Positions 5,480 to 28,974 of a stretch of 52,824 nucleotides of DNA are shown here, piece after piece (positions within the stretch are counted from its first letter, which is position 1; each line of letters starts with the position of its first letter). Made by a program: the position numbers and the translations under genes. This stretch comes from Clostridia bacterium (GTDB lineage Bacteria > Bacillota > Clostridia > Christensenellales > Aristaeellaceae): contig JAUMVG010000017.1 in NCBI GenBank assembly GCA_030530315.1, positions 1-52,824 on the forward strand, written 5' to 3'. The notes below the pieces were generated by a model. It did no database searches. It was not told where the DNA came from and saw only the letters and a program-made list of their open reading frames with translations.

Positions 5480-6316
5480 TCACTCAGGATTGGTGGCATG
5501 CACAGGTTCCCAAACCAGAAGCTGGGAGGTGAAATGGTATGCGTTTACCAGACTTCCATCCGGCTGACAAATATGATACGGCAGCAGCAGCGGCAGCAGC
5601 GCTTCGTCTGTTGCGGGTTTCAGCAGAAACGATCGCGCGCGACGAAGCAGCGCAGTCTGATCCGGATAGACATAATGCCGCGTATTGGGGATGTCGAGGC
5701 GCCTGGCGGCGATGCCAATGGAGGTGAGGATTTCCTGCATTTCCTCACAGCCCTGCCGAGTGTAGTGGACGGGCAGGCCGGCATCCACCATGTCCTTCAG
5801 CCACGGCAGCTCCGGCGGTTGGTTCATGCCAATGACGCACAGCTTCCGGGCCGCAGCGTCGAGTTTTTCGAAGAACAGCTCCGGCTCTGTCAGCCGGTAA
5901 AAGCAGTTGTAGGCGAAAACAAGGTCGTGAGGCGCGACGTCCGCTTCCTCCCAGGCGGCGCAGACGGTGTTCAGACGCCTTCCCATCTCCGTCGCCCGAC
6001 GCGACAGCAGAAGTAGATTGTCCGGAGAGATGTCCACCGCCGTGACGCTGTCGAAGCGCTCCAGCAGCGGAAAGGTGTAGTTACCCCAGCCAGGGCCGAT
6101 TTCCAGAACGGTATGGATTCCCTGGCCATCGCACAATGCTGACAGGGCCTGCCATACCTGACGGGCGTAATTGTCCCGTCCTGGCAGGCCGCTCTCTGCA
6201 CGCGTCTTCCAGAAATCGCGCTCGATTTCAGCGTCAGTGACGCGCGCCGCAAGCGTACCGTCAGGGCGCGCCAGTCCCTTGCGCCACAGATTCCCGGCAT
6301 CCGTATGTTTTTGCAT
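5480..6316 (-). CDS. Class I SAM-dependent methyltransferase, first gene of the B12-riboswitch operon
   Basis: 278 residues from the ATG at 6316 (MQKHTDAGNLWRKG). An ATG at 6373 in the same frame is rejected because it sits inside the stem of the hairpin at 6346-6379. The SAM-binding motif I (VLEIGPGWGNY) is at residues 70-80, followed by TAVDISPDN (motif II acidic residue) and DLVFAYNCFYR. It is 38 bases upstream of the binding-protein gene. The family is too broad to name the substrate. It is not evidently a nicotianamine-synthase/CntL-type enzyme. Its place between a cobalamin riboswitch and a metal/peptide-type importer suggests it modifies a corrinoid, a metallophore or something imported with it. 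Confidence 0.8.
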   Translation of the reverse strand: MQKHTDAGNLWRKGLARPDGTLAARVTDAEIERDFWKTRAESGLPGRDNYARQVWQALSALCDGQGIHTVLEIGPGWGNYTFPLLERFDSVTAVDISPDNLLLLSRRATEMGRRLNTVCAAWEEADVAPHDLVFAYNCFYRLTEPELFFEKLDAAARKLCVIGMNQPPELPWLKDMVDAGLPVHYTRQGCEEMQEILTSIGIAARRLDIPNTRHYVYPDQTALLRRARSFLLKPATDEALLPLLLPYHICQPDGSLVNAYHFTSQLLVWEPVHATNPE

Positions 6317-6345
6317 TGCATTCGCCGCTTTTTCCCATAATAACA

Positions 6346-6379
6346 GGGCTATTGCTGCACATAAAGACAGCAATAGCCC
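6346..6379 (-). terminator. Hairpin between cobalamin riboswitch and methyltransferase (expression platform)
   Basis: A perfect 12-bp inverted repeat (GGGCTATTGCTG at 6346-6357 and its complement at 6368-6379) with a 10-base loop lies between the aptamer and the gene. On the minus strand it is followed by TGTTATTAT, a weak T-rich tail. It may be the terminator that the riboswitch controls. Confidence 0.55.
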
Positions 6380-6443
6380 GCATTCGCCATGCTAAACGCG
6401 CCTGTTCGCTCCATGACCCGTGGAGGCAGATGAAAGGCGTTTT

Positions 6444-6602
6444 ACAGGCAAGTCTCCTGGCTTATGGATCAGCGCGTTGGCAGTCTTCCCGGCCCATGGC
6501 CAGTGACATATTTGCCTTCGCTCCCCAATTACAGTGGCGGCACCGCGCGGGACTTTACACCCGTCTTCCTTATTAAACCCCGTCCGCAGACAGAGTACCT
6601 GT
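6444..6602 (-). ncRNA. Cobalamin riboswitch
   Basis: On the minus strand the segment carries the conserved cobalamin aptamer elements in order. They are a GGTGTAAAGTCCC segment, GCCGCCACTGTAAT (6525-6538), GTCACTGGCC, GGGAAGAC and the B12-box AAGCCAGGAGAC (6452-6463). ACAGGTA at the 5' end pairs with TGCCTGT at the 3' end to close P1. The transcript would begin just upstream from the promoter at 6609-6638. This class binds adenosyl- or methylcobalamin and normally turns its operon off when B12 is plentiful. It should control the methyltransferase and the peptide/nickel-type importer. Confidence 0.93.
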
Positions 6603-6608
6603 GAAGTT

Positions 6609-6638
6609 ATTATAGACGATCAATGGCAAACATGTCAA
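6609..6638 (-). promoter_or_regulatory. Promoter for the minus-strand riboswitch operon
   Basis: On the minus strand TTGACA (6633-6638) and TATAAT (6609-6614) are separated by 18 bases, a consensus sigma-70/SigA promoter. Transcription should start about 6602, at the first bases of the cobalamin riboswitch. Confidence 0.85.
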
Positions 6639-6714: not shown

Positions 6715-6744
6715 TTGACGAGCGACTGCTCAAAGGAATATAAT
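6715..6744 (+). promoter_or_regulatory. Promoter for the importer/nitrogenase-like operon
   Basis: TTGACG (6715-6720) and TATAAT (6739-6744) are 18 bases apart. The start point near 6751 lies about 20 bases before the 5' arm of the structured RNA at 6770-6872. Confidence 0.82.
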
Positions 6745-6769
6745 TGAATAGTAAATAAATATAAACTAA

Positions 6770-6872
6770 CTTTTCCTTCTCCACTTAAAGTGGAACATGG
6801 AACGGGGTAAGAACCCACGAGAAGGTCACTGTGCGGCGGGTAACCGCCAAGTCAGATACATGGAAGGAAAAG
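6770..6872 (+). ncRNA. Compact structured leader RNA, probable variant cobalamin-class riboswitch
   Basis: A long closing stem pairs CTTTTCCTT (6770-6778) with AAGGAAAAG (6864-6872), extended by TCCA/TGGA. Inside are GGAAC followed by a GGGT-AAGA-ACCC hairpin (6805-6816), GGTCACTGT (6824-6832), a GGCGG/CCGCC hairpin with a GNRA loop GTAA (6835-6848), and AAGTCAGATAC (6849-6859). The order and sequence resemble the cobalamin aptamer core (GGTG..ATCC, GCCACTGT, AGTCAGGAGACC) without its large side domain. A perfect terminator follows at 6943. Class assignment is by eye. The neighbouring divergent cobalamin riboswitch and downstream BtuFCD-type genes support it. Confidence 0.6.
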
Positions 6873-6942
6873 GCGCACTGTTCCAGTTCAGCAGCTGCGG
6901 TTTGGCGTTGCCTCAGAAGGGGGACGTCAGTTATTGCTTGCG

Positions 6943-6975
6943 CTCCTGACATCGGAACAGATGTCAGGAGTTTTA
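6943..6975 (+). terminator. Leader terminator upstream of the BtuF-like gene
   Basis: An 11-bp perfect stem (CTCCTGACATC 6943-6953, complement 6960-6970) with loop GGAACA is followed by TTTTAAT. GACGTCAG at 6923-6930 can pair with CTGACATC (6946-6953) with one mismatch, giving a candidate antiterminator. Placement 70 bases after the RNA element and 79 bases before the gene fits a transcription-attenuating riboswitch. Confidence 0.85.
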
Positions 6976-7053
6976 ATATCTGGGTCAAACGATATATGTT
7001 TTTCATATGCAAGGTACACCGTACCTGCAAATAAATGACAGGAGGATCCCATT

Positions 7054-7980
7054 ATGAAAAAACTCTGTACGATTCTGGCTATCTTGATGGCGCTGTGCAT
7101 GTGCGCATCCGCACTGGCAGAGGTGACCATCACCAACACCTACAACGGTGAAGACTTTGACATCACCTATGACAATCCCCAGCGCATCGTCAGCACTGCG
7201 GGCTTCACCACCGAGATGCTGCTGGCGCTCGGCCTGGAGGACAGAATCGTTGGCTATAGCTACATGGACAACGAGATCTTCCCGGCCTACAAGGAGGCCT
7301 TCGACAAGCTGAACTGCCTGAGCGACGAGTGGCCCTCCGACGAGGTGCTGCTGTCCGTGGAGCCCGACTTCGTCACCGGTTGGGCCTCCGGCTTCAGTGA
7401 CAAGCACTACAACCAGGCCTTTTGTGAAACCAACGGCATCCTGCCCTACGTGCCCAAGGTGGAGGGCGAGAACGCATCCATCGGTGAGGCCTACGAGGAT
7501 CTGACCAACCTGGGCGAGATCTTCGGCGTGCAGGATAGGGCCGCCGAGGTGATCAACGACATGCAGACCCGCATCGCCGCCGTGGAAGCGGCCACCAAGG
7601 ATGCCGAGACCGTCCGGGTGTTCATCTATGACTCCGGCGAGGACGAGCCCTTCACCCTGGGCGCCGGTCTGGCCTCCGATATGATCGCTGCGGCGGGCGG
7701 CAAGAACATCTTCGAGGACGACTTCAACTACTGGGGCACCGTGGCCTGGGAGAGTGTAATCGACCGCGATCCCGAGTACATCATCGTGATGGACTACTTC
7801 GCCGGCGGCAATACCCAGGAGAAGATCGACTTCCTGAAGAACAACGAGGCGCTGGCCGATGTCACCGCTGTCAGGGAGGGCAACATCTTCGTGCTGGGCC
7901 TGACCGACGTCACCGGCGGCGTGCGCAATGCCGAGGCCATCGAGACCATGGGACACAACTTCCACGCGGACCTGTTCTGA
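7054..7980 (+). CDS. Solute-binding protein of a BtuFCD/FecBCD-type importer (copy 1)
   Basis: 308 residues. The signal peptide (residues 1-22) ends in ASALAE, with no clear lipobox. The mature part has the class III binding-protein pattern NPQRIVSTAGFTTEMLLALGLEDRIVGYS near residues 32-60 and a long connecting helix in the middle. Later segments PEYIIVMDY and REGNIFVLG match FecB/BtuF C-terminal motifs. The RBS GGAGG lies 9 bases before the ATG. It delivers an iron-siderophore, heme, corrinoid or similar chelate to the permease at 8041. RNA control of the operon favours a corrinoid or cobalt compound by inference. Confidence 0.85.
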   Translation: MKKLCTILAILMALCMCASALAEVTITNTYNGEDFDITYDNPQRIVSTAGFTTEMLLALGLEDRIVGYSYMDNEIFPAYKEAFDKLNCLSDEWPSDEVLLSVEPDFVTGWASGFSDKHYNQAFCETNGILPYVPKVEGENASIGEAYEDLTNLGEIFGVQDRAAEVINDMQTRIAAVEAATKDAETVRVFIYDSGEDEPFTLGAGLASDMIAAAGGKNIFEDDFNYWGTVAWESVIDRDPEYIIVMDYFAGGNTQEKIDFLKNNEALADVTAVREGNIFVLGLTDVTGGVRNAEAIETMGHNFHADLF

Positions 7981-8040
7981 ACCTGAATCGACGGAATCGG
8001 CTGTATCCCTACAGCCGATTCCGCGCATATGGAGACAACC

Positions 8041-9093
8041 ATGCTGAAAAACGCTTCCCGCCGTTTGCGCTGGCTGCTGGCTGTGACACTGGCCGCGATG
8101 CTGTGCGTATCCGTCGCGCTGGCCATCAATATCGGCGCGGTGAACATCAACCCCCGCATCATATTCGAGATCATCGTCAACCGGGTGACAAATACACAGC
8201 TGTTCGAGCCCTTCTGGAAGAGCTCCCAGGAGTCCATCGTTTGGAACCTGCGCTTTCCCAAGGTGCTGGTAGCGGGCTGCTGCGGGGCCGGGCTGACGCT
8301 GGCGGGGATATTCATGCAGGCGCTGACCAAGAACCCGCTGGCCGATCCCTACATCCTGGGCATCTCCTCCGGCGCGTCCACGGGCGCGGTGCTCTCTCTG
8401 CTGGTGGGGAGCCTCCCGGTGATTGGCAGGCTGCCGCTGCACACCGGAGCGTTTTTCGGGGCGCTGTTCACGGCTATGCTGGTGTTTGTGTTTGGCGGGA
8501 ACACCATCCGAAGCGGCACCACGCGGTTGGTGCTGGTGGGCATGGCGGTGTCCGCTATGTTCACGGCGCTGACGGACCTCATCATATTCGTCACGCCGGA
8601 TTCCAAGAAGGTCACCAGCGCCATGTTCTGGATGACGGGCTCCTTCGCGGGCGTGGCCTGGACGGACGTCGCCCCGGCGATGATCGCGCTTGCCGTGGGC
8701 ATATTGGTCGCCGTCGCGATCCGGCGCGAGATGGACGCCCTGCTGATGGGCGAGCAGATGGCCCGCAATTACGGCGTCAACGTGACGCTCATCAAAATCG
8801 TGCTGATCGTCACCAGCACGCTGCTCACGGCGGTGATGGTCTCCATGAGCGGCATCATCGGCTTCGTGGGCCTGGTGATCCCTCATGTCACGCGGCAGCT
8901 GATGGGCGCGAACCACGGCAGGATGCTTCCCATCGCGCTGCTGATCGGGACGATATTCATGATCTGGGCCGATGTCATCGCCAGGGTCTGCGTAGCCCCG
9001 GAGGAGTTGCCCGTGGGCGTCATCACCGCCATCTGCGGCGCGCCGTTCTTCCTGGCGATGCTGAGAAAGTCGAGGTACAGTTTCGGAAAATGA
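8041..9093 (+). CDS. FecCD/BtuC-family ABC permease (copy 1)
   Basis: Polytopic membrane protein of 350 residues with about ten predicted helices. Family signatures include FPKVLVAGCCGAGLTLAGIF, QALTKNPLADPYILGISSGA and GFVGLVIPHVTRQLMG. The start at 8041 (MLKNASRRLRW) is preferred to 8029 because GGAG at 8031-8034 is then a well-spaced RBS. The stop overlaps the ATPase start (AAAATGA). A dimer of this protein would form the transport pore for the binding protein encoded just before it. Confidence 0.9.
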   Translation: MLKNASRRLRWLLAVTLAAMLCVSVALAINIGAVNINPRIIFEIIVNRVTNTQLFEPFWKSSQESIVWNLRFPKVLVAGCCGAGLTLAGIFMQALTKNPLADPYILGISSGASTGAVLSLLVGSLPVIGRLPLHTGAFFGALFTAMLVFVFGGNTIRSGTTRLVLVGMAVSAMFTALTDLIIFVTPDSKKVTSAMFWMTGSFAGVAWTDVAPAMIALAVGILVAVAIRREMDALLMGEQMARNYGVNVTLIKIVLIVTSTLLTAVMVSMSGIIGFVGLVIPHVTRQLMGANHGRMLPIALLIGTIFMIWADVIARVCVAPEELPVGVITAICGAPFFLAMLRKSRYSFGK

Positions 9094-9926
9094 ACATGGA
9101 CATGAAGCGCGACAAAGCGCCTGCCATTGAAACCGCGGGCCTCGGCTTTTCCATCGACGGGCACGACATACTGTCCGGGATCGACCTCAGGGTGATGCGG
9201 CATCAGTGGATCGGCCTGATCGGCCCCAACGGCTGCGGCAAGTCCACGCTGCTCAAAAACATCTACCGCCAGTACCAGCCTTCAGCGGGTGCCGTCTATG
9301 TGAACGGGGACGATGTCCGCGGCCTGAAGAACAAGGCTCTGGCCCGTCGGATGGCCGTGCTGGCCCAGGAAAACAACCTGGAGTTTGATTTCACCGTGCG
9401 GGAGATCGTGGCGATGGGCAGGTATGCCCACCGGAGCTTCCTGCAGGCGGCCACGGACGAGGACGACGCTGTATGCGCCGCCGCGCTTGAGACGGTGGGC
9501 ATGTCCGGCTTTGCCGAGCGCAGCTTTTTAAGCCTGTCCGGCGGCGAGAAGCAGCGGGTGTACATGGCGATGGCCTTCGCCCAGCAGAGTGAGATCCTGA
9601 TCCTGGATGAGCCTACCAACCATCTGGACATCGGCTACCAGCTGCATCTGATGGACACGCTACGTCAACAGCAGCGGGACCGGGGCGTGACGGTTTTTAC
9701 ATCGATTCACGACATGGACTTGGCCGCGGCCTACTGTGACAGGATCATCATGATGGATCGTGGCAGGATTGTCGCCCAGGGCCTGCCGGAGGAGGTATTG
9801 CGGGCGGATTTGATCCAGTCGGTTTTCCACGTGGATGTGGAGATCACGACCGATTCTGAAACCGACAGACGGCGCGTTCGCTATCTGAGATACCATTCTG
9901 ATGAGAGCCGGGCGACTCGTGCATGA
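9090..9926 (+). CDS. BtuD/FecE-family ABC ATPase (copy 1)
   Basis: 278 residues. Walker A GPNGCGKST (about residue 42), the signature LSGGEKQRV, Walker B ILILDEPTNHLD and the switch IHDMDLA are all present. The frame is open far upstream, but that is a shadow of the permease; the start ATG at 9090 overlaps the permease stop. A C-terminal extension with DVEITTDSETDRRRV follows the core. It powers the first importer of the operon and is followed by AAAAAGGAGG, the RBS of a second, separate importer. Confidence 0.9.
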   Translation: MNMDMKRDKAPAIETAGLGFSIDGHDILSGIDLRVMRHQWIGLIGPNGCGKSTLLKNIYRQYQPSAGAVYVNGDDVRGLKNKALARRMAVLAQENNLEFDFTVREIVAMGRYAHRSFLQAATDEDDAVCAAALETVGMSGFAERSFLSLSGGEKQRVYMAMAFAQQSEILILDEPTNHLDIGYQLHLMDTLRQQQRDRGVTVFTSIHDMDLAAAYCDRIIMMDRGRIVAQGLPEEVLRADLIQSVFHVDVEITTDSETDRRRVRYLRYHSDESRATRA

Positions 9927-9959
9927 ACCGTAGGACTTATAAAAAGGAGGATTAAAACC

Positions 9960-11036
9960 ATGAAAACCAAAGCTGTACTGTCCTTGACACTTGTGCTGGC
10001 GCTGATCATCTCCGCATTCGGCTTCGCGCTGGCGGAGGAAACCCGCACCGTGACTGACGCCGCAGGCAACGTGGTGGAGGTTCCCGCCGACCTGGCCAGG
10101 ATCTCCGTGACGCCGCTGCCCTGGTCCTCTGTCATCTATGCCATCGATGGCACCTCGGAGCACATGGTCTGCATCAACCCCGGCGCGATGAAGGCGTACA
10201 CCGGAAACTTCTTTGAGAAGCTCGACCCCGCCTATGCCAGTCTGGACACCACCTGCATCGGTACGGACTTCTCCATCAACATGGAGGAAATGGTGGCCCG
10301 CGGCATCCAGGCGATGGTGATCTGGGACTACCAGACCGACGAGGCCGAGCAGTTGAAGGCGCTGGGCATCGTGCCGGTGATGGTCAAGAACGACACCGTG
10401 GAGGATCTGCAATCCAGCCTGCGCGCGATCGGCGAGCTGGTGGGTAAGCCCGAACGTGCTCAGCAGTTCATCGACCTGTACGGCGAGGCCTATGACCGCA
10501 TACAGTCCTACCAGGACAAGGTCGCCGAGGCCGACAAGCCGAAGGTCATCTACCTGCGCAACAGTGAGCTGCGCCTGCAAGGCAATGATAACTTCATCAG
10601 CACTGCGCTGGCGCTGGCGGGCGCCGACAACGTGGCTGCCGAGCAGTCCAACATCAGCATGGAGGAGATCCTTGATATCAATCCCGACATCATCCTGATG
10701 AGCTGGTTCGACAAGTTCACGCCCGACGACCTGTACAACAACGCCATCGAGGGCCAGGACTGGAGCACCGTGAAGGCCGTTCAGGAGCATCACGTCTACA
10801 AGACCCCCATCGGCATCTATCGCTGGGACGCTCCTGGCGTGGAAACCCCTCTGATGATGCTGTGGCTCGCCCAGCTGGTCCAGCCGGAGATCTTCGCCGA
10901 CATCGACATCAACCAGGAGGTCACCGACTACTTCAAGACTTATTTCGACTATGACCTGACTCAGGAGGACCTCGACCAGATCATGAGCGTCGCCTATAAT
11001 GCCAACAGCGTCGCCTGGGAGGGCATGGGCAAATGA
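9960..11036 (+). CDS. Solute-binding protein of a BtuFCD/FecBCD-type importer (copy 2)
   Basis: 358 residues. The signal peptide ends FGFALAE (Ala-x-Ala, no lipobox). The mature start TRTVTDAAGNVVEVPADLARI is the standard opening of siderophore/corrinoid-type class III binding proteins. It diverges clearly from the copy-1 protein, so the two importers probably handle different ligands or forms of one ligand. MVIWDYQTDEAEQLKALGIVPVMV is a second family segment. A strong RBS precedes it, and its stop overlaps the ATG of the next permease, so translation is coupled. Confidence 0.87.
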   Translation: MKTKAVLSLTLVLALIISAFGFALAEETRTVTDAAGNVVEVPADLARISVTPLPWSSVIYAIDGTSEHMVCINPGAMKAYTGNFFEKLDPAYASLDTTCIGTDFSINMEEMVARGIQAMVIWDYQTDEAEQLKALGIVPVMVKNDTVEDLQSSLRAIGELVGKPERAQQFIDLYGEAYDRIQSYQDKVAEADKPKVIYLRNSELRLQGNDNFISTALALAGADNVAAEQSNISMEEILDINPDIILMSWFDKFTPDDLYNNAIEGQDWSTVKAVQEHHVYKTPIGIYRWDAPGVETPLMMLWLAQLVQPEIFADIDINQEVTDYFKTYFDYDLTQEDLDQIMSVAYNANSVAWEGMGK

Positions 11037-12058
11037 GTCTGAAGCGGGATGAAAACCGCCATGTGCGGCTGGTGGCCACCATGACAGCCATCCTGGTTCT
11101 GCTGATGATCGTCGCCATCGGACTGGGGAGATACAGTATCTCCCCGGTTCGCGTATTCAGGATACTGCTGTCCAGGATCGTGCCTGTACAGCGGGACTGG
11201 GAGGAACAGGCGGAGAGCGTCATATTTGTGCTGCGCCTGCCGCGCATCATGGCGGCGGTTCTGGTGGGAATGGCGCTTTCCCTGTCCGGCGGCGCTTACC
11301 AGGGCGTGTTCAAGAATCCTCTGGTGGCGCCGGACATGCTGGGCGTGTCCTCCGGGGCCTGCGTCGGCGCGTCGCTGGGCATCCTGCTGAATGCCAACGA
11401 GACGGTCATACAGATCATGGCGTTCGCCGGCGGCATGCTGGCGGTATTCGCGGCCAACATGATCCCGAAGCTGGTCCGCAACAATTCCATGATGGCGCTG
11501 GTGCTGGCGGGCGTGATCATCTCCGGTCTTATGAATTCGATCCTGGGCTTGCTCAAGTACCTGGCCGACCCGGAGACACAGCTGGCATCCATCACCCACT
11601 GGCAGTTGGGCAGCCTCGCTTCGGTGGTATGGAAGGACATCCTCTCCATCGGCCCGCCGATACTGATCGCATCGGCGGTGCTGATCGCCGTGCGCTTCAA
11701 GATCAACATCCTGTCGCTGGGGGAGAGCGAGGCGCGATCCCTGGGGACGGACATCCGCTGGGTGCGCGGGCTGATCGTCGTGTGCGCCACCGTGTTGACG
11801 GCCAGTGCCGTGTGCGTCAGCGGCACCATTGGCTGGATCGGGCTGGTCGTTCCCCATCTGAGCCGCATGCTGGTGGGACCGGACAACCGGAAGATGATCC
11901 CCATCTCCGCCGTGCTCGGGGCGATTTTCCTGCTGCTGATCGATACGCTGGCTCGGGTGCTCACCAGCGCGGAGCTGCCGCTGAGCATTCTCACCGGGCT
12001 GGTTGGCGCGCCGTTCTACGTCTACCTGCTGCTCAAGCAAAGGATGAAGCTGTCATGA
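11033..12058 (+). CDS. FecCD/BtuC-family ABC permease (copy 2)
   Basis: 341 residues with about nine or ten helices. Family signatures: LRLPRIMAAVLVGMALSLSG, YQGVFKNPLVAPDMLGVSSG and GTIGWIGLVVPHLSRMLVG. Start and stop both overlap neighbouring genes (ATGA at each end). Sequence similarity to the copy-1 permease is moderate, typical of paralogous importers rather than a recent duplication. Confidence 0.9.
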   Translation: MSLKRDENRHVRLVATMTAILVLLMIVAIGLGRYSISPVRVFRILLSRIVPVQRDWEEQAESVIFVLRLPRIMAAVLVGMALSLSGGAYQGVFKNPLVAPDMLGVSSGACVGASLGILLNANETVIQIMAFAGGMLAVFAANMIPKLVRNNSMMALVLAGVIISGLMNSILGLLKYLADPETQLASITHWQLGSLASVVWKDILSIGPPILIASAVLIAVRFKINILSLGESEARSLGTDIRWVRGLIVVCATVLTASAVCVSGTIGWIGLVVPHLSRMLVGPDNRKMIPISAVLGAIFLLLIDTLARVLTSAELPLSILTGLVGAPFYVYLLLKQRMKLS

Positions 12059-12828
12059 TACTGGAAGTCAAGGATCTGTCCTTCGCCTATCCAGGCGGCG
12101 AGACGCTGTTCGACCACGTCAGCTTCGCCCTGGAGGAGGGGCAGATATTTTCAATACTCGGCGCGAACGGGGCGGGCAAGTCTACCATGATGAACTGCAT
12201 TGCCAACCTGCTCACGCCCAATCGCGGGGAAATCCGGATCGCCGGAAAGAGGCTGTCGGACATGTCCATCCGTGAGGTCTCCATGCTGATCGGCTATGTG
12301 CCCCAGATGCACACGGCCGCCTATGGCTATGCGGTGAGGGATTTTGTGGTCATGGGCCGCGCGCCGCACCTGGGCTTTCTGAAGCAGCCCACCGCGGCGG
12401 ACTTCGCGCTGGTGGACGAGACGCTGGAGGAGCTGGGCATCGCCCGGCTGGCCAATCGTCCCTACACGGAGCTGTCCGGCGGCGAGCGCCAGCAGGTCAG
12501 CATCGCCCGAGCCATCGTACAGCAGCCAAAGATCATCATGCTGGACGAACCCACAAACCACCTGGACTACGGCAACCAGCTGAGGATGCTGCACCTGGTA
12601 CGCAAGCTGGCGTCGAAGGGCTATACCATAATCATCACCAGCCATATGCCCGACCATGTGCTGCTGCTGGGCGGCTCGGTGGGAATGCTGAACGATGACG
12701 GCAGCTTCGTAACCGGCAGGAACGAGGACATCATCACAGAAGAGAACCTGCGCAGGCTGTATGGCGTGGACGTGCACCTGATCTACCTGGAGCAGCTGAG
12801 GCGGGTCGTCTGCGTTTCGGGGGAATGA
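12055..12828 (+). CDS. BtuD/FecE-family ABC ATPase (copy 2)
   Basis: 257 residues with Walker A (GANGAGKST), signature LSGGERQQVSIARA, Walker B IIMLDEPTNHLD and the switch ITSHMPDH. The start at 12055 overlaps the permease stop. It completes the second importer. Only 3 bases separate its stop from the NifH-like gene, so the transport and redox genes are clearly on one transcript. Confidence 0.9.
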   Translation: MILEVKDLSFAYPGGETLFDHVSFALEEGQIFSILGANGAGKSTMMNCIANLLTPNRGEIRIAGKRLSDMSIREVSMLIGYVPQMHTAAYGYAVRDFVVMGRAPHLGFLKQPTAADFALVDETLEELGIARLANRPYTELSGGERQQVSIARAIVQQPKIIMLDEPTNHLDYGNQLRMLHLVRKLASKGYTIIITSHMPDHVLLLGGSVGMLNDDGSFVTGRNEDIITEENLRRLYGVDVHLIYLEQLRRVVCVSGE

Positions 12829-12831
12829 CGG

Positions 12832-13665
12832 ATGAACAGAACCATGAGGATTGCCTTTTACGGCAAGGGCGGCATTGGCAAATCCACCATTGCCAGCAAC
12901 GTCTCCGCACTGATGGCGATGGCAGGCAGGCACGTGCTCCACATCGGCTGCGACCCCAAGGCGGATTCCACGAGGCTGCTGACCGAGGCCCGCATCCCCA
13001 CGGTGCTGGAGCAGCTGGAGTCAAAGGAAAAGCTGTCTCGTGCGGATATGGTGTTTCCTGGCTTTGCCAGCGTGAGCTGCGTGGAGGCGGGCGGCCCGGA
13101 GGCCGGACAGGGCTGCGCGGGGCTGGGCATCACTACCGCCATCAATGAACTGACCGACGCAGGTGTGTTCGACGAGGATTGGGACGCCATCATCTACGAT
13201 GTGTTGGGTGATGTGGTCTGCGGCGGCTTTTCCGTGCCGATGCGTCAGCACTATGCCGACCGGGTCTACGTAGTAACGTCCGCCACTTACATGTCCCTGT
13301 ATGCCGCCAACAACATCCTGAAGGGTGTGCGGCGATATTCGATGGGCGGGCGTTCCCTGTGCGGCGGCCTGATCCTCAACCATGCGCATGGGGACGCAGA
13401 TGTGCAACTGTGCCGGGCCTTTGCCGGAGCGACAAAGACCAACGTGCTTGCGATACTCGAAGAGGACGCACAGCTTCAGCTCTCCGATTTCAGACGCGGC
13501 CTACTGGTGCGGGATTATCCCGACAGTTCCAATGCGCAGCACCTGCGCGACCTGATCGGGCAGATGGAGGCGCTGCCGGAGCAGCCGCTGCCGGAGCCGA
13601 TGTCCCAGTCGGGCATGGAGGACTTTGGTCAGCGGATGGCGGAGGTGTTGTATGGCAAACGCTGA
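12832..13665 (+). CDS. NifH/BchL/CfbC-family ATP-dependent iron protein
   Basis: 277 residues, the normal length for nitrogenase-type iron proteins. The P-loop GKGGIGKST is at residues 11-19 and CDPKADST at 40-47. Both [4Fe-4S] ligands are recognisable: Cys95 in EAGGPEAGQGCAGLGI and Cys130 in YDVLGDVVCGGF. The arginine that is ADP-ribosylated in true NifH (GRG) is Leu here. Such proteins form homodimers that deliver single electrons to a component-1 partner at the cost of ATP. No nifDK, nifEN or nifB is present, so nitrogen fixation is unlikely. The stop region overlaps the next gene, which is presumably its electron acceptor. Confidence 0.92.
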   Translation: MNRTMRIAFYGKGGIGKSTIASNVSALMAMAGRHVLHIGCDPKADSTRLLTEARIPTVLEQLESKEKLSRADMVFPGFASVSCVEAGGPEAGQGCAGLGITTAINELTDAGVFDEDWDAIIYDVLGDVVCGGFSVPMRQHYADRVYVVTSATYMSLYAANNILKGVRRYSMGGRSLCGGLILNHAHGDADVQLCRAFAGATKTNVLAILEEDAQLQLSDFRRGLLVRDYPDSSNAQHLRDLIGQMEALPEQPLPEPMSQSGMEDFGQRMAEVLYGKR

Positions 13666-14536
13666 TGTCGTGATCGAGCGTCTGGAGGACGAGGGCAAAA
13701 TGGGACCCGCACGGGGCATATTGCTCAAGGCGGGCATGGCGCTGGCGGCAGTGGGTTCGCTGGCTTGCCTGCGCAGCATCTACCTGACCGCCTGCCAGTT
13801 GGGACGCACGGATTACCTGTTCCTGGAACCGCTGACCGCTCGGGATTATGCCCTGGGGCGCAACACTTCTGCCATTCGGCGATGCGTGCAGCGTGCACTG
13901 GACAGGCCGGACGTGCGCGGCGTCGTGATCTATGCGTCGTGCATGGACATACTTGCGTACTGGAACGCAGATGAAATAATGGCGGGGCTGGACAATCCGC
14001 GCGGCGTTCCCGTGGAAATCTTCTATCGCGGGCCAATGGCCAAGCGCCGTGTGCCGCCGATGGAAGCACTCAGGCGGATATGGGAAAGGTGGGGTGTCGT
14101 GGACGAACCTGAGCTTGAGCCTGTGAAAGCGGAACCGGTATTTGATTTTGACGATCGACCGGATTTTGAGGGTGTCATTGAAACGCTCAGGGATGAAGAT
14201 TGTGACATCCTTCTGCTAACCCCGGGCGGCTGTAAGAGCTGCATGAGCTGCCAGGTACCGCCGGTGCGCGTTGACAACTTTCGGAATACCCGCTTTTCGG
14301 ATGTATTTGTTTGGAACTGCTCCGTGGACAAGCTCTGCAATGCTATTGCCGAATACTATGATGGTAACCGCCCGCTTTATCTCTTGAACACGGCTGTGAC
14401 ACAGACCATCGGTGTAGATTTGAACATGCTGTGCAAGATGCTGGTCGCAAGGGGAATACCGGCGGTTGCAGTTGAAACAAATGGTTTTGATAACACCAAA
14501 GCGGAACAGGAATGTTTTCAGAATCAGTTTGAATAA
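13652..14536 (+). CDS. Small nitrogenase-component-1-like protein, two subdomains
   Basis: 294 residues from ATG 13652, which overlaps the iron-protein gene by 14 bases; an upstream in-frame start is ignored. The sequence resembles NifD/NifK/CfbD pieces twice. In the first half, SLACLRSIY (Cys39), YLFLEPLTARD, and VVIYASCMD (Cys97) are followed by a helix and PVEIFY. The second half has LLLTPGGCKSCMSC (Cys194, 197, 200), FSDVFVWNCSVDKLCNAI, LLNTAVTQTIGVD and IPAVAVETNGF. Family subunits are usually above 400 residues, so this is a reduced or rearranged form. The cysteines could hold a P-cluster-like or [4Fe-4S] centre. The substrate is unknown; importers upstream suggest an imported metal chelate or tetrapyrrole. 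Confidence 0.72.
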   Translation: MANADVVIERLEDEGKMGPARGILLKAGMALAAVGSLACLRSIYLTACQLGRTDYLFLEPLTARDYALGRNTSAIRRCVQRALDRPDVRGVVIYASCMDILAYWNADEIMAGLDNPRGVPVEIFYRGPMAKRRVPPMEALRRIWERWGVVDEPELEPVKAEPVFDFDDRPDFEGVIETLRDEDCDILLLTPGGCKSCMSCQVPPVRVDNFRNTRFSDVFVWNCSVDKLCNAIAEYYDGNRPLYLLNTAVTQTIGVDLNMLCKMLVARGIPAVAVETNGFDNTKAEQECFQNQFE

Positions 14537-14939
14537 AGAATCTTGACGCTTACTCTGCTGGACGCCCACCACATCTTCGGTGAATGGCGAGAGGATTCGA
14601 GGCAGACGAAAGAGGCGAATTCGCACCGGACCTGAAAAGCGGCGTGCTTTCGCAAGATGCGCGGTTTGATCTGTTGGAGGGCGCAGAGCAGATCGCGTCA
14701 ACAAAAGAACAGACCAAAGTCGGAATGGCATTTTCGAGGGTTCCCACCAACACTTTGACACACAACCCCAGAAGCCCTGTGCCACAGGGGTTTTCACGAG
14801 GTTGGTGTTAAAATGATGGTGGAGACTACCCCCACACCAGACCAAAGCTTTACTACAAAGTGGCCAACGTTTTGGTACAATCTCCCGTTTTTACGATTAA
14901 CACAATCATAATGGTAGTAAAGTGTTGGCGGAGACACAA
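14537..14939. other. 403-bp non-coding or decayed interval after the nitrogenase-like operon
   Basis: No convincing gene. A 75-codon frame at 14584-14811 (plus) and a 209-codon frame on the minus strand exist, but neither has a good RBS or recognisable domains. CCCTGTGCCACAGGGG near 14778 forms a short hairpin. The stretch TTTTGGTACAATC near 14872 resembles the terminal-repeat sequence at 14946. Confidence 0.4.
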
Positions 14940-14995
14940 AACTGCACGGCAATTTTGATACAATGTGTGTCAGGGTTGCGGTGCAGTTCTTTTTT
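14940..14995 (+). terminator. Rho-independent terminator downstream of the nitrogenase-like operon
   Basis: AACTGCACGGCAA (14940-14952) pairs with TTGCGGTGCAGTT (14976-14988) with one mismatch and is followed by CTTTTTT. The distance of 400 bases from the last gene means it might instead end a transcript from the interval itself. Confidence 0.65.
14946..14965 (+). repeat. Left copy of a perfect 20-bp inverted repeat
   Basis: ACGGCAATTTTGATACAATG occurs here, and its exact complement occurs at 17211-17230. The pair brackets the HxlR regulator and two flavoprotein genes (about 2.3 kb). Confidence 0.85.
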
Positions 14996-15017
14996 GTCAG
15001 AACCCTTGCGCCGCAGG

Positions 15018-15165
15018 CACTCTTACACGAAAGCCCTTCTCTCCATCCCGTCCGGGAATCGCGAAAACTGGTCCCGACGGGCGTTGAACCCTCCGCACTC
15101 TTACACGATTGCTTTTTTGAAAGGTGCACTATCACACGATTGCTCAGAGCTTTCGTGTAATAGTG
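15018..15165 (+). repeat. Cluster of 13-bp repeats
   Basis: The motif CACTCTTACACGA occurs at 15018-15030 and 15096-15108. CACTATCACACGA follows at 15127-15139, and an inverted copy at 15153-15165 makes a 13-bp stem with one mismatch. A fifth copy (CACGATTACACGA) lies at 17180-17192 beside the right inverted repeat. Confidence 0.65.
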
Positions 15166-15222
15166 GGAGACGGATTTTGTCATGTTTCCTTCTGGAGAAG
15201 GAAACAAAAGCGGCCGATATGA

Positions 15223-15597
15223 TTATTGCAGTCCTCGATCAATTCTGATCTGATCTTCTCCCCATTCGTGAATTGCCAGCAGTACCGGCGTGAGCGCTTC
15301 ACCCCGGTCGCTGAGCGTGTACTCCGTTCTGGGAGGAACGACGGGATACATCGTTCGGATGATCAGCCCGTCCTCCTCTAGTTCCCTGAGTGCCTTGGAA
15401 AGCATCACGTCGCTAATGCCGGGAATGTCACGCCGCAGCTCACTGAACCGAAGCGGGCGGTTCTCGTCCGCAAGGTGCCACAGGATCGGGATCTTCCAGC
15501 GCTGCCCGATGATTGAAAGCACATACCGCACCGGGCAGACCTCTTCGCCCCGCTTGAGCATTTCCTTCATTTCAATGTGTTCCTGACTGCTGCTCAT
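15223..15597 (-). CDS. HxlR-family winged-helix regulator
   Basis: 124 residues from the ATG at 15597, chosen because GGAGG lies 5 bases upstream; a second ATG is at 15609. The family signature is complete: a conserved Cys in EEVCPVRYVLSIIGQRWKIPILWHL, then LRFSELRRDIPGISDVMLSKALRELEEDGLI (recognition helix) and the wing YTLSDRGEALTPVL. HxlR proteins respond to thiol-reactive compounds or small ligands and usually control the divergent gene. Here the divergent flavoprotein gene at 15706 is the likely target. Confidence 0.92.
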   Translation of the reverse strand: MSSSQEHIEMKEMLKRGEEVCPVRYVLSIIGQRWKIPILWHLADENRPLRFSELRRDIPGISDVMLSKALRELEEDGLIIRTMYPVVPPRTEYTLSDRGEALTPVLLAIHEWGEDQIRIDRGLQ

Positions 15598-15621
15598 GAC
15601 TGCCTCCATGCTAAGAAAAAT

Positions 15622-15658
15622 ATTAGTACTTGTATTAGTTTTATCTGCTTGCTATAAT
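15622..15658 (+). promoter_or_regulatory. Promoter of the flavoprotein genes with overlapping direct-repeat operator
   Basis: TTGTAT (15630-15635) and TATAAT (15653-15658) are 17 bases apart. ATTAGT is repeated at 15622-15627 and 15634-15639 across the -35, with AGTACT between; this is the likely HxlR site and would also cover the regulator's own promoter. Confidence 0.65.
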
Positions 15659-15705
15659 ACCAGATGTCAGGAGAAAACGCAAGCGCTTATTCGGAGGTAG
15701 AGGAA

Positions 15706-16434
15706 ATGAAGGTTATCGCGATCAACGGTTCTCCCCGCAGGAAGTGGAACACCGCACAGCTGTGCCAGGCCGCGCTGGAAGGGGCGGCAGCCGCAGGCGC
15801 TGAGACCGAGCTCATTCACCTGGAAACCATGAAATTCAAGGGCTGCATGAGCTGCTATGCCTGTCACAGCAAAAAGAAATATGACACGAAGGTCTGTTAC
15901 TATAAGGATGAACTGACCGAAACGCTGAACAAGTGCATCGAGGCCGACGCCATCGTCATCGGTACGCCAATCTATTACGGCTTTGCCACTGGCGACGTGC
16001 GCGCCTTCATGGAGCGGCTGATGTTTCCCATCGATACCTATGAGGTGGACAGTGAGGGCTATCGGCCCATCAAGCTGGACAGAGTCATCCCAACGGCCAT
16101 GCTCTACACCATGAACGCCAGCGAGCCCTTCTTCAGGGGGAACACAGCGCTGGCCATGAACGAGAGCGAGCTGCGGCGGATGTTCGGCTATTCTGAAAGC
16201 TATTATGCCTATGATACCTGTCAGTTCAACAACTACGACCTCTATGCTGCCAACCTCTTTAACGCCGAGCACAAATATGAGCGCCGGGAGAAGCAATTTC
16301 CCATCGACCTGGAAAACTGCCGCCAGTTGGGTTCTCGACTGGTGGAGAAGGCGAAGGAGGCCCAGTCGGGCACGCTGGTGCGCGAGCGCCTGCGCCTGCC
16401 GGAGGAATTCCTGAAGGAAATGCACATCATCTGA
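15706..16434 (+). CDS. Flavodoxin-fold NAD(P)H-dependent oxidoreductase, iron-sulfur-flavoprotein type
   Basis: 242 residues. The start at 15706 (MKVIAINGSPRRKWNT) follows AGGTAGAGGA. The N-terminus is the FMN phosphate-binding loop (GSPRRKWNTA). A cysteine cluster GCMSCYACHSKKKYDTKVC (CX2CX2CX9C, about residues 45-64) resembles the cluster-binding motif of archaeal and clostridial iron-sulfur flavoproteins. GTPIYYGFATGDVRAFMERL is the second flavin segment. A long C-terminal part after residue 150 is also present in the next gene. Likely reduces quinones, nitro compounds or an electrophile sensed by the HxlR protein. Confidence 0.85.
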   Translation: MKVIAINGSPRRKWNTAQLCQAALEGAAAAGAETELIHLETMKFKGCMSCYACHSKKKYDTKVCYYKDELTETLNKCIEADAIVIGTPIYYGFATGDVRAFMERLMFPIDTYEVDSEGYRPIKLDRVIPTAMLYTMNASEPFFRGNTALAMNESELRRMFGYSESYYAYDTCQFNNYDLYAANLFNAEHKYERREKQFPIDLENCRQLGSRLVEKAKEAQSGTLVRERLRLPEEFLKEMHII

Positions 16435-16448
16435 GGAGGCTTTTCGAT

Positions 16449-17093
16449 ATGAAGATCGTTGCCGTAAACGGAGGCCCGCGCAAGGGCAAGAACACCGACC
16501 AGATGCTGGACGCCTTCATTGAGGGCGTGAAGACCGCTGCACCGGAGGCGGAGGTTGAGGTCATTCGCCTGTATGATTATGCCTTCAAGGGCTGTATGAG
16601 TTGCTTTGCCTGCCAACTGGAGCAGAACCGGGACGACCTGGGCTGCCGGATCAAGGACGAGATTACCAGTCTGCTCAGGGACGCTTTCCACGCGGACGGT
16701 ATCGTGTTCGCCAGTCCCATCTATTACTGCAATGTGTCCGCCCAGCTGCGGCTGTTCTGGGAGCGGCTGCAATATCCCGGCCATTCTCCGAAGGCGATCC
16801 CCACCGCACTCATCTACACCATGAATGCCAACGAGGAGCAGACCGAGCAGTTCATGGGCAAGCCGCTGGAACTAAACAGCTGGTACCTGGAGGGGCGCTT
16901 CGGCGTGAAGCCGGAGGTCGTCTGTTCTTACGACACCTTCCAGTACAACGACAGCGAGCGTTTCAACGCCGCCTTCCGGGAGCCCGCCGCCCGCAAGAGG
17001 GTGCTGCACGATCAGAAGTTTCAGAGCGATATGCAGAACGCTCGCAATGCCGGTATGCGGCTGGTTCAGAAGATTAGGCCGTGTTCAATATAG
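16449..17093 (+). CDS. Flavodoxin-fold NAD(P)H-dependent oxidoreductase, paralog
   Basis: 214 residues with RBS GAGGAGG 11 bases upstream, and 14 bases after the previous gene. It has the same architecture: GGPRKGKNTDQML flavin loop, cysteine cluster GCMSCFACQLEQNRDDLGC, and FASPIYYCNVSAQLRLFWERL. It shares IPTALIYTMNA and the C-terminal SYDTFQYND-like stretch with its neighbour, so the two are an old tandem duplication and may form a heterodimer. Confidence 0.85.
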   Translation: MKIVAVNGGPRKGKNTDQMLDAFIEGVKTAAPEAEVEVIRLYDYAFKGCMSCFACQLEQNRDDLGCRIKDEITSLLRDAFHADGIVFASPIYYCNVSAQLRLFWERLQYPGHSPKAIPTALIYTMNANEEQTEQFMGKPLELNSWYLEGRFGVKPEVVCSYDTFQYNDSERFNAAFREPAARKRVLHDQKFQSDMQNARNAGMRLVQKIRPCSI

Positions 17094-27582: not shown

Positions 27583-27819
27583 CTGCTGCGATAGCCCACA
27601 ACGACCCCATTTCAATGGCGGGGGACCACTCCACTCAATGGTTCTTCGCACATTCAAGAAGGAGGAAGCAGTTCCGCAGACTCGCGGTGCGGCAGTGTGG
27701 AGACCTGCCGTAATGCGGTTCGCGCAAGGCGACGGCGCTGAATGCTTTCATTTGACAGCCCCGCTGGATGCGCGACGCGAGGCAGCCCGGGAGGTGTCCC
27801 GGCTGCCAGAGCAAATGAT
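27583..27819 (+). other. Leader region of the MsmK-type gene, with hairpin
   Basis: 237 bases without a convincing gene. GGCAGCC (27781) to GGCTGCC (27807) forms a stem of about 11 bp with one bulge. The only good Shine-Dalgarno (GGGAGG, 27789-27794) lies at the loop side of this hairpin, about 25 bases before the ATG at 27820. Confidence 0.5.

Positions 27820-28974
<1,155 letters not shown>

Follow-up and report, generated by a model that had tools for sequence, protein, structure and literature searches.

Nitrogenase-like proteins encoded beside ATP-binding cassette (ABC) transporters have been noted before, and a coupling of metal transport to cofactor assembly was proposed (Dos Santos 2012, PMC3464626). 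D. hafniense has three nifHDK-like operons, each with transporter genes (Kim 2012, PMC3306737), and in M. labreanum and D. hafniense the D-like subunit carries two cysteines and the K-like subunit one (PMC3464626). CfbD is a homodimer of one subunit (PMC11423573), and Isr and Mar, the isethionate and methylthio-alkane reductases, are described in PMC11423573 and PMC12552129. The accessible portions of these papers and of PMC10418091 give no function for the importer-linked type, and the literature searched, mostly from outside subscription journals, yielded none for an importer-linked nitrogenase-like reductase. Here we analyze an operon at positions 7054-14536 of a 52,824-nucleotide stretch of DNA (the window; contig JAUMVG010000017.1 of assembly GCA_030530315.1, a Clostridia bacterium). 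Like the group IV nitrogenase-like systems near ABC transporters (PMC3464626, PMC3306737), it combines NifH-like and component-1 genes in an anaerobe, and its component 1 has the same 2 + 1 cysteine pattern as those of M. labreanum and D. hafniense. Unlike the transporter-linked systems of 2012, it belongs to a type in which D is cut to one domain and fused to K, and the window copy is truncated; the riboswitch and corrinoid-domain links seen here are likewise foreign to the accessible parts of the two 2012 accounts.

We read the operon, with a probability of roughly 0.4, as a horizontally acquired, decaying copy of a nitrogenase-like reductase-importer system that in intact relatives would import a corrinoid or other chelate and reduce it at low potential. 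A preliminary description of this DNA knew of no pathway described with this layout; nitrogenase-like genes beside ABC transporters were already reported in 2012, with no function given in the accessible parts of those reports.

Operon layout and iron protein

The operon comprises eight plus-strand genes, in which two FecCD-type importer sets are followed by an iron protein and a component-1-like gene. Identities in the list below are to L071, the locus with the closest complete operon.

7054-7980, plus strand: SBP1, substrate-binding protein of importer 1 (PF01497, 107.2 bits; best NCBIfam model TIGR03868, 158.9 against a cut-off of 392.4)
8029-9093, plus strand: PERM1, FecCD-type permease (PF01032, 307.8 bits)
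9090-9926, plus strand: ATP1, ABC ATPase (PF00005, 118 bits; start chosen, ATG at 9090 or 9096)
9960-11036, plus strand: SBP2, substrate-binding protein of the reductase-linked importer 2 (PF01497, 70 bits; 74-75% identity)
11033-12058, plus strand: PERM2, FecCD-type permease (PF01032, 277.7 bits; 70-71% identity)
12055-12828, plus strand: ATP2, ABC ATPase (PF00005, 118.3 bits; 68% identity)
12832-13665, plus strand: NIFH, intact nitrogenase-like iron protein (PF00142, 268.6 bits)
13652-14536, plus strand: component-1-like gene, 3' truncated, with a short D domain and the greater part of K domain 1 (homology extends to about 14503)
14559-14938 and 14937-15213, no strand assigned: two repeat segments behind the truncated gene, also in congeners (copies of 87% in G009, 94% in the same genome and 92% in G020)

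Three junctions are ATGA overlaps, 3 bases precede NIFH, and NIFH overlaps the component-1 gene by 14 bases, all as previously described; the genes had also been said to run without gaps, which fails at SBP1/PERM1 (48 bases) and ATP1/SBP2 (33 bases). Matches to PF01497, PF01032 and PF00005 for all six transport proteins bear out the description of two complete binding protein-permease-ATPase sets. Both sets resemble BtuFCD and FecBCD in their three-part make-up, FecCD permease family and Peripla_BP_2 binding protein. They differ in that none of the six proteins has an NCBIfam match at cut-off among the matches listed (for the ATPases, the best 25), and scores fall well below those for BtuF (SBP1 58.3 and SBP2 29.9 against 234), BtuC (PERM1 229.5 and PERM2 223 against 461) and BtuD (ATPases 124.9 and 119.7 against 281).

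NIFH has the features of a group IV nitrogenase-like iron protein: it matches PF00142 at 268.6 bits against a cut-off of 25, and its P-loop and both cluster cysteines (C95 and C130, window numbering) are invariant in 8 of 8 aligned sequences, which confirms the earlier statement that the [4Fe-4S] cysteines are retained. Placement by tree and profile, as the preliminary description had proposed, puts NIFH with its counterparts in L071 and L015 in one clade (local support, 0.98-0.99) and leaves every curated cut-off unreached: NIFH scores 283.2 against 394.35 for NifH, 282.2 against 402 for CfbC, 188.1 against 345.15 for BchL and 172.2 against 331.2 for BchX. In this tree of 18 sequences, which does not include CfbC, MarH, IsrH or BchL, the clade is separate from nitrogenase NifH and from other nitrogenase-like proteins, including transporter-linked ones of Treponema and Sporomusa, as well as from a distant Methylobacterium protein that lacks annotation and is, at a guess, BchX-like. 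Among 14 genomes checked for PF00142, the 1.5-Mb G705 has no match over the cut-off. Ordinary nitrogen fixation is rejected on the NifH model score, on the finding of no further PF00142 match over 45 bits in the assembly and on the lack of any PF00148 match over cut-off in the genome. The latter agrees with the reported absence of nifDK and nifEN: an assembly-wide PF00148 search gave no match at the cut-off of 28.6, the window fragment itself reaching 20.9 bits, and NifB was not searched for.

Described reductases of other types also differ from this system. DPOR, the BchL-BchN-BchB protochlorophyllide reductase, has separate N and B subunits, which are not in this operon, and the BchL and BchX scores speak against both DPOR and COR. 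CfbCD is alike in its tetrapyrrole chemistry and in that the CfbC score of NIFH is level with its NifH score; it differs in that NIFH remains below the CfbC cut-off, in that the D and K parts are fused here, and in that component 1 matches no NCBIfam model. MarHDK and IsrBHDK are likewise group IV systems, the Mar complex being the second fold family among the Foldseek matches listed and containing the PDB chain closest in sequence to NIFH (215.7 bits, with NifH close behind at 211.9). In contrast, both have separate D and K subunits, where most relatives of the window system have a fused gene and the window a fragment, and Isr additionally has a radical SAM partner (PMC11423573, accessible part), of which there is none among the proteins of this operon.

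Component 1 is fused in most relatives and truncated in the window

The component-1 protein of the window has 294 residues and aligns with that of L071 as far as residue 285, at a Gly-Phe pair invariant in 10 of 10 aligned sequences, after which similarity ends. Fused relatives have 545-584 residues and consist of a single, short D-type domain and a K subunit, while G145 (L015) has a separate D (273 residues) and K (405 residues). In the structure model of the L071 protein, the break point falls between a strand (276-280) and a helix (290-303). On this predicted fold, the window gene is read as ending inside the first K domain, and it does not encode a complete K subunit; the missing 3' part was not found elsewhere in the assembly. 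The window protein scores 24.3 bits against PF00148 (E, 1.8e-5), below the cut-off of 28.6 and with partial profile coverage, and four proteins tested from relatives (L013, L014, and D and K of L015) pass it with 36.3-126.2 bits. Three cysteines (C39, C97 and C194) are conserved. The gene previously described as component-1-like is a fragment without the rest of K.

Third-position G+C content is 0.77 for NIFH, and the two halves of the component-1 gene have 0.72 (first) and 0.55 (second). Repeats begin about 55 bases beyond the homology break. Of 35 relatives searched, 7 have matches to these repeats, and each of the 7 is a congener; for the second segment (14937-15213), the 94% copy within the same genome lies on a different contig. 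The simplest reading is that the 3' part was lost in a repeat-associated rearrangement. There is loss in a relative too: in G528, which shares its genus with Anaerovibrio RM50, ATP2 and most of component 1 are missing, so that the permease gene leads straight into the terminal piece of component 1 (L042, 8411-9798). The source assembly has 144 contigs, a completeness of 94.19% and a contamination of 6.11%. Contamination was considered as the origin of the contig and judged unlikely because both the repeats and the leader RNA upstream of the operon (95% identical over 129 bases in one congener) recur in congeners, even though component 1 itself does not.

Other arrangements of such genes were also seen. 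In the genome of L071, a NifH domain and a component-1-type part are joined in one protein of 740 residues (L103, 88-2310), and a similar gene, split, lies in L105. By eye, NifH, D and K stand in a row with hydrogenase maturation-type genes in L044 (16-10462, with a second D-K pair) and L049 (5867-11256); a comparable association has been noted in Coprococcus catus (PMC3464626, accessible part).

Importer 2 accompanies component 1 across loci

We selected 16 loci, the window included, solely by component-1 similarity and scanned them for the remaining genes by tblastn because the gene caller missed real genes in GC-rich loci. Eight loci are Selenomonas-type and three are from one Anaerovibrio genus, so the 16 are not independent. 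Among the 15 matching genomes, G464, G470, G477 and G509 matched in the K part only and were left out; G528 (L042) was kept despite such a match because its piece is 96-97% identical to that of L014. Four weak matches among 7 other genomes (G074, G130, G193 and G414) have a D of full length and were considered separately; importer-2-like genes are near in G193 and G414 and are not found within 19.5 kb in G074 and G130. Relatives of component 1 come from Lachnospiraceae, Selenomonas, Anaerovibrio, a Veillonellaceae assembly and G145.

SBP2 and PERM2 lie near component 1 in 15 of the 16 loci (the exception is L079) and ATP2 in 14; in L070 importer and component 1 are divergently oriented. The order in L071 is that of the window, with one additional gene between ATP2 and NIFH. 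No protein listed in the relatives' gene calls is closer to importer 1 than to importer 2, and relatives of SBP1 (34-35% identity, E up to 1e-40) occur in 7 of 59 other genomes searched, with two in the same genome. Component 1 was found in none of 59 relatives, 27 of them congeners. A plasmid search with the full L071 component 1 gave one weak match, in Treponema, and a single-protein scan of genome contigs gave 28 stretches and no relative. As judged from gene order, importer 2 and component 1 belong together. The operon is probably of horizontal origin. The gene order, whose recurrence the preliminary description had proposed to examine, is nearly the same in L071, and importer 2 recurs; component 1 is absent from the 59 relatives searched, and NIFH adjoins in few loci, as discussed below.

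Leader RNA and divergent riboswitch

The region upstream of SBP1 contains four elements.

6430-6617, minus strand: cobalamin riboswitch heading the leftward, divergent operon (RF00174, 111 bits; cut-off, 31.5)
6715-6744, plus strand: promoter-like site TTGACG-18-TATAAT ahead of the leader (consensus scan, 11 of 12 matches)
6769-6872, plus strand: structured leader RNA with a long P1 and a conserved core, AdoCbl-riboswitch-like and below threshold (model R1; best Rfam family RF01482)
6942-6971, plus strand: terminator-like hairpin between leader and SBP1 (12-pair stem, then a T-rich tail)

The riboswitch at 6430-6617 is the only one over the Rfam threshold near the focal operon. It was rejected as the leader of that operon because it lies on the minus strand, where it heads the divergent operon. 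A promoter-like site on its strand (6638-6609) has 12 of 12 consensus matches; the scan found 3 such sites in the region against 1.1 expected. The operon that it heads runs leftwards to 449 and encodes a methyltransferase (5480-6373), then an Opp/Dpp-type importer (solute-binding protein family 5). Importers of this type can transport nickel or cobalt, and this one is perhaps for cobalt or nickel.

For the plus-strand leader, there was no Rfam match at threshold or at any E up to 1. The best match among all Rfam families (231 bases scanned) is RF01482, the AdoCbl riboswitch; the alignment covers model positions 25-96 of 149 and scores 14.8 bits (E = 2), short of the gathering threshold of 50. 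Model R1, which derives from the copies in the window (6769-6900) and in one congener, matches 7 of 150 genomes of the family, including its two source genomes. In the alignment of the 7 sequences, which was fitted to the structure and is biased in its favor, the paired cells amount to 89.9%, and two-sided variation is seen at 12 of 33 pairs, 7 of these 12 being among the 10 pairs of P1. None of 500 shuffles reaches the paired-cell or two-sided-change value, whereas the number of pair types is equaled in 8 of the 500; slid versions yield 2 or 3 pairs with two-sided change. The R1 leader is absent from the others of 17 loci scanned, including the relatives' operons. Its copies precede different genes, namely SBP1 (window), the gene of an FMN-binding/FAD-binding protein (G001) and that of a protein of 232 residues whose start, by eye, is signal-like (G578); no convincing gene was seen downstream of the other four. 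By eye, a promoter-like box lies directly upstream of most copies (window 6769-6985; L054 8028-8159; L063-L067). An Rfam scan of L058-L062 gave only matches below the gathering score.

The leader had been described as probably corrinoid-sensing. A structured leader does precede the operon, but the clear cobalamin riboswitch is on the opposite strand and the leader scores far below the Rfam threshold. A divergent corrinoid sensor is possible, and the RNA may represent a new variant of riboswitch or a small RNA.

Two further features lie elsewhere in the window: directly past the repeats, an HxlR regulator opposite two FMN reductase/flavodoxin-fold proteins (15223-17093), and a malK-I RNA at 27611-27825 (113.7 bits against a cut-off of 60.3).

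Proposed function and alternatives

Our reading draws on gene order, the linkage of importer 2 with component 1, the truncation in the assembly, cysteine conservation and the separate NifH clade, all of them sequence evidence; from these we infer horizontal origin, substrate, cluster, electron flow and loss of activity. In intact relatives, SBP2-PERM2-ATP2 would take up a metal complex, the likeliest candidate being a corrinoid or a corrinoid-like compound of cobalt. At the expense of ATP, the NifH-like protein would hand low-potential electrons to a single fused component 1 (D domain plus K subunit), which would hold one Fe-S cluster via its three cysteines, and the imported compound would be reduced in a pocket of its K part. 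The window copy is probably decaying: its component 1 lacks the rest of K, and therefore import may still work and reduction probably does not.

Markers in some relatives point to a corrinoid. Cobalamin riboswitches over threshold lie upstream of the operon in Anaerovibrio RM50 (L014, 175 bases) and G145 (L015, 14 bases), and L042 has a copy of the L014 riboswitch, 99.4% identical, before its operon. In L015 (10653-12027), another cobalamin riboswitch lies ahead of the neighboring upstream gene, which encodes an EamA-family transporter. The operon of L071 contains a gene in which the latter half resembles the large subunit of the corrinoid iron-sulfur protein (E, 2.9e-18; PF03599; NF003195 at 92.2 bits against 306). 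A more specific version, which we consider somewhat unlikely, is an ATP-driven corrinoid salvage reductase under cobalamin riboswitch control, in which the importer and a carrier like the corrinoid iron-sulfur protein (L071) would serve a minimal, fused, three-cysteine component 1 that reduces cobalt or the macrocycle, the window leader perhaps being a divergent new variant. Import and ATP-driven low-potential reduction, as suggested in the preliminary description, is partly supported.

A number of observations weigh against the reductase-importer reading. NIFH is adjacent to component 1 in only 3 of 16 loci (window, L071 and L015; the count is weak for L040 because that contig is 4.6 kb long), and two genomes checked of the Anaerovibrio genus have no PF00142 match over 57 bits, a poor fit for an ATP-driven reductase unless those copies also decay. 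No riboswitch over threshold heads the operon in Selenomonas L013, L034, L036, L072, L073 and L076, in Lachnospiraceae L070 and L071, or in L047, L048, L092 and L093 (L033, L038 and L039 were scanned by B12-box pattern only, and L042 by pattern and blastn only). The riboswitch of S. flueggei L036 is about 1.2 kb away, in opposite orientation and before another gene, and the L015 element departs from the others at its 3' end. A search of all loci examined for the corrinoid-domain gene of L071 gave its own locus and one chance match, the gene being found in one genome only. SBP2 is far from the BtuF cut-off (29.9 against 234), the apparent truncation could be an assembly error, and TonB receptors occur in 7 of 16 loci, all Selenomonas-type.

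These receptors favor a different substrate. If the importer takes in a ferric siderophore and the nitrogenase-like pair provides electrons of a potential low enough for the release of Fe(II), a job otherwise of esterases or flavoproteins, a TonB receptor adjoining component 1 in 7 of 8 Selenomonas-type loci would be expected company; the sole one examined (L013) is closest to the siderophore receptors BauA and FemA and scores 184.7 bits against TIGR01783, under the cut-off of 223.5. A plasmid of Sporomusa termitida places side by side a TonB siderophore receptor, an AraC regulator, an iron ABC importer, NifH, two component-1 genes and a PF00756 esterase (weakly matching enterochelin esterase, 32.4 against 222), but its NifH belongs to a different clade from that of the window. 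The cobalamin riboswitches of L014, L042 and L015 and the corrinoid domain of L071, all in the window's component-1 group, also misfit iron, and we regard a ferric-siderophore reductase as unlikely.

Uptake of a cobalt (or nickel) chelate, in which reduction frees the metal of a metallophore complex for cobamide synthesis, would account for cobalamin riboswitch control as well as for siderophore-type receptors, two markers that were not seen in one and the same locus. It would also suit the Opp/Dpp-type importer of the window's divergent riboswitch-headed operon. It leaves the corrinoid-protein-like gene of L071 unexplained, and we consider it improbable.

The last alternative makes component 1 a scaffold, no enzyme, that receives imported metal and helps to build a metallocofactor with NifH optional, in line with the coupling proposed by Dos Santos 2012 (PMC3464626, accessible part). 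Importer 2 is indeed the far steadier neighbor, and the two Anaerovibrio-genus genomes would do without NifH. It is nevertheless very unlikely, since NifH is kept in the operon in the window, L071 and L015, all 8 Selenomonas-type genomes (among 14 checked) encode, at a distance from component 1, a NifH (358-370 bits) that might act in trans, and L042, one of the two NifH-less genomes, retains the component-1 end only.

Significance

To our knowledge, no function has been assigned to many of the group IV nitrogenase-like proteins. The accessible parts of PMC3464626 and PMC11423573 are in line with this. The type described here, with its compact and fused component 1, its link to a single importer family and its corrinoid or siderophore markers in different genomes, narrows the possible substrates to a short list that could be tested in relatives with sequenced strains, such as Selenomonas, Anaerovibrio and Sporomusa. 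If the substrate is a corrinoid, the system would be another ATP-driven route by which anaerobes reduce cobalt or process scavenged cobamides.

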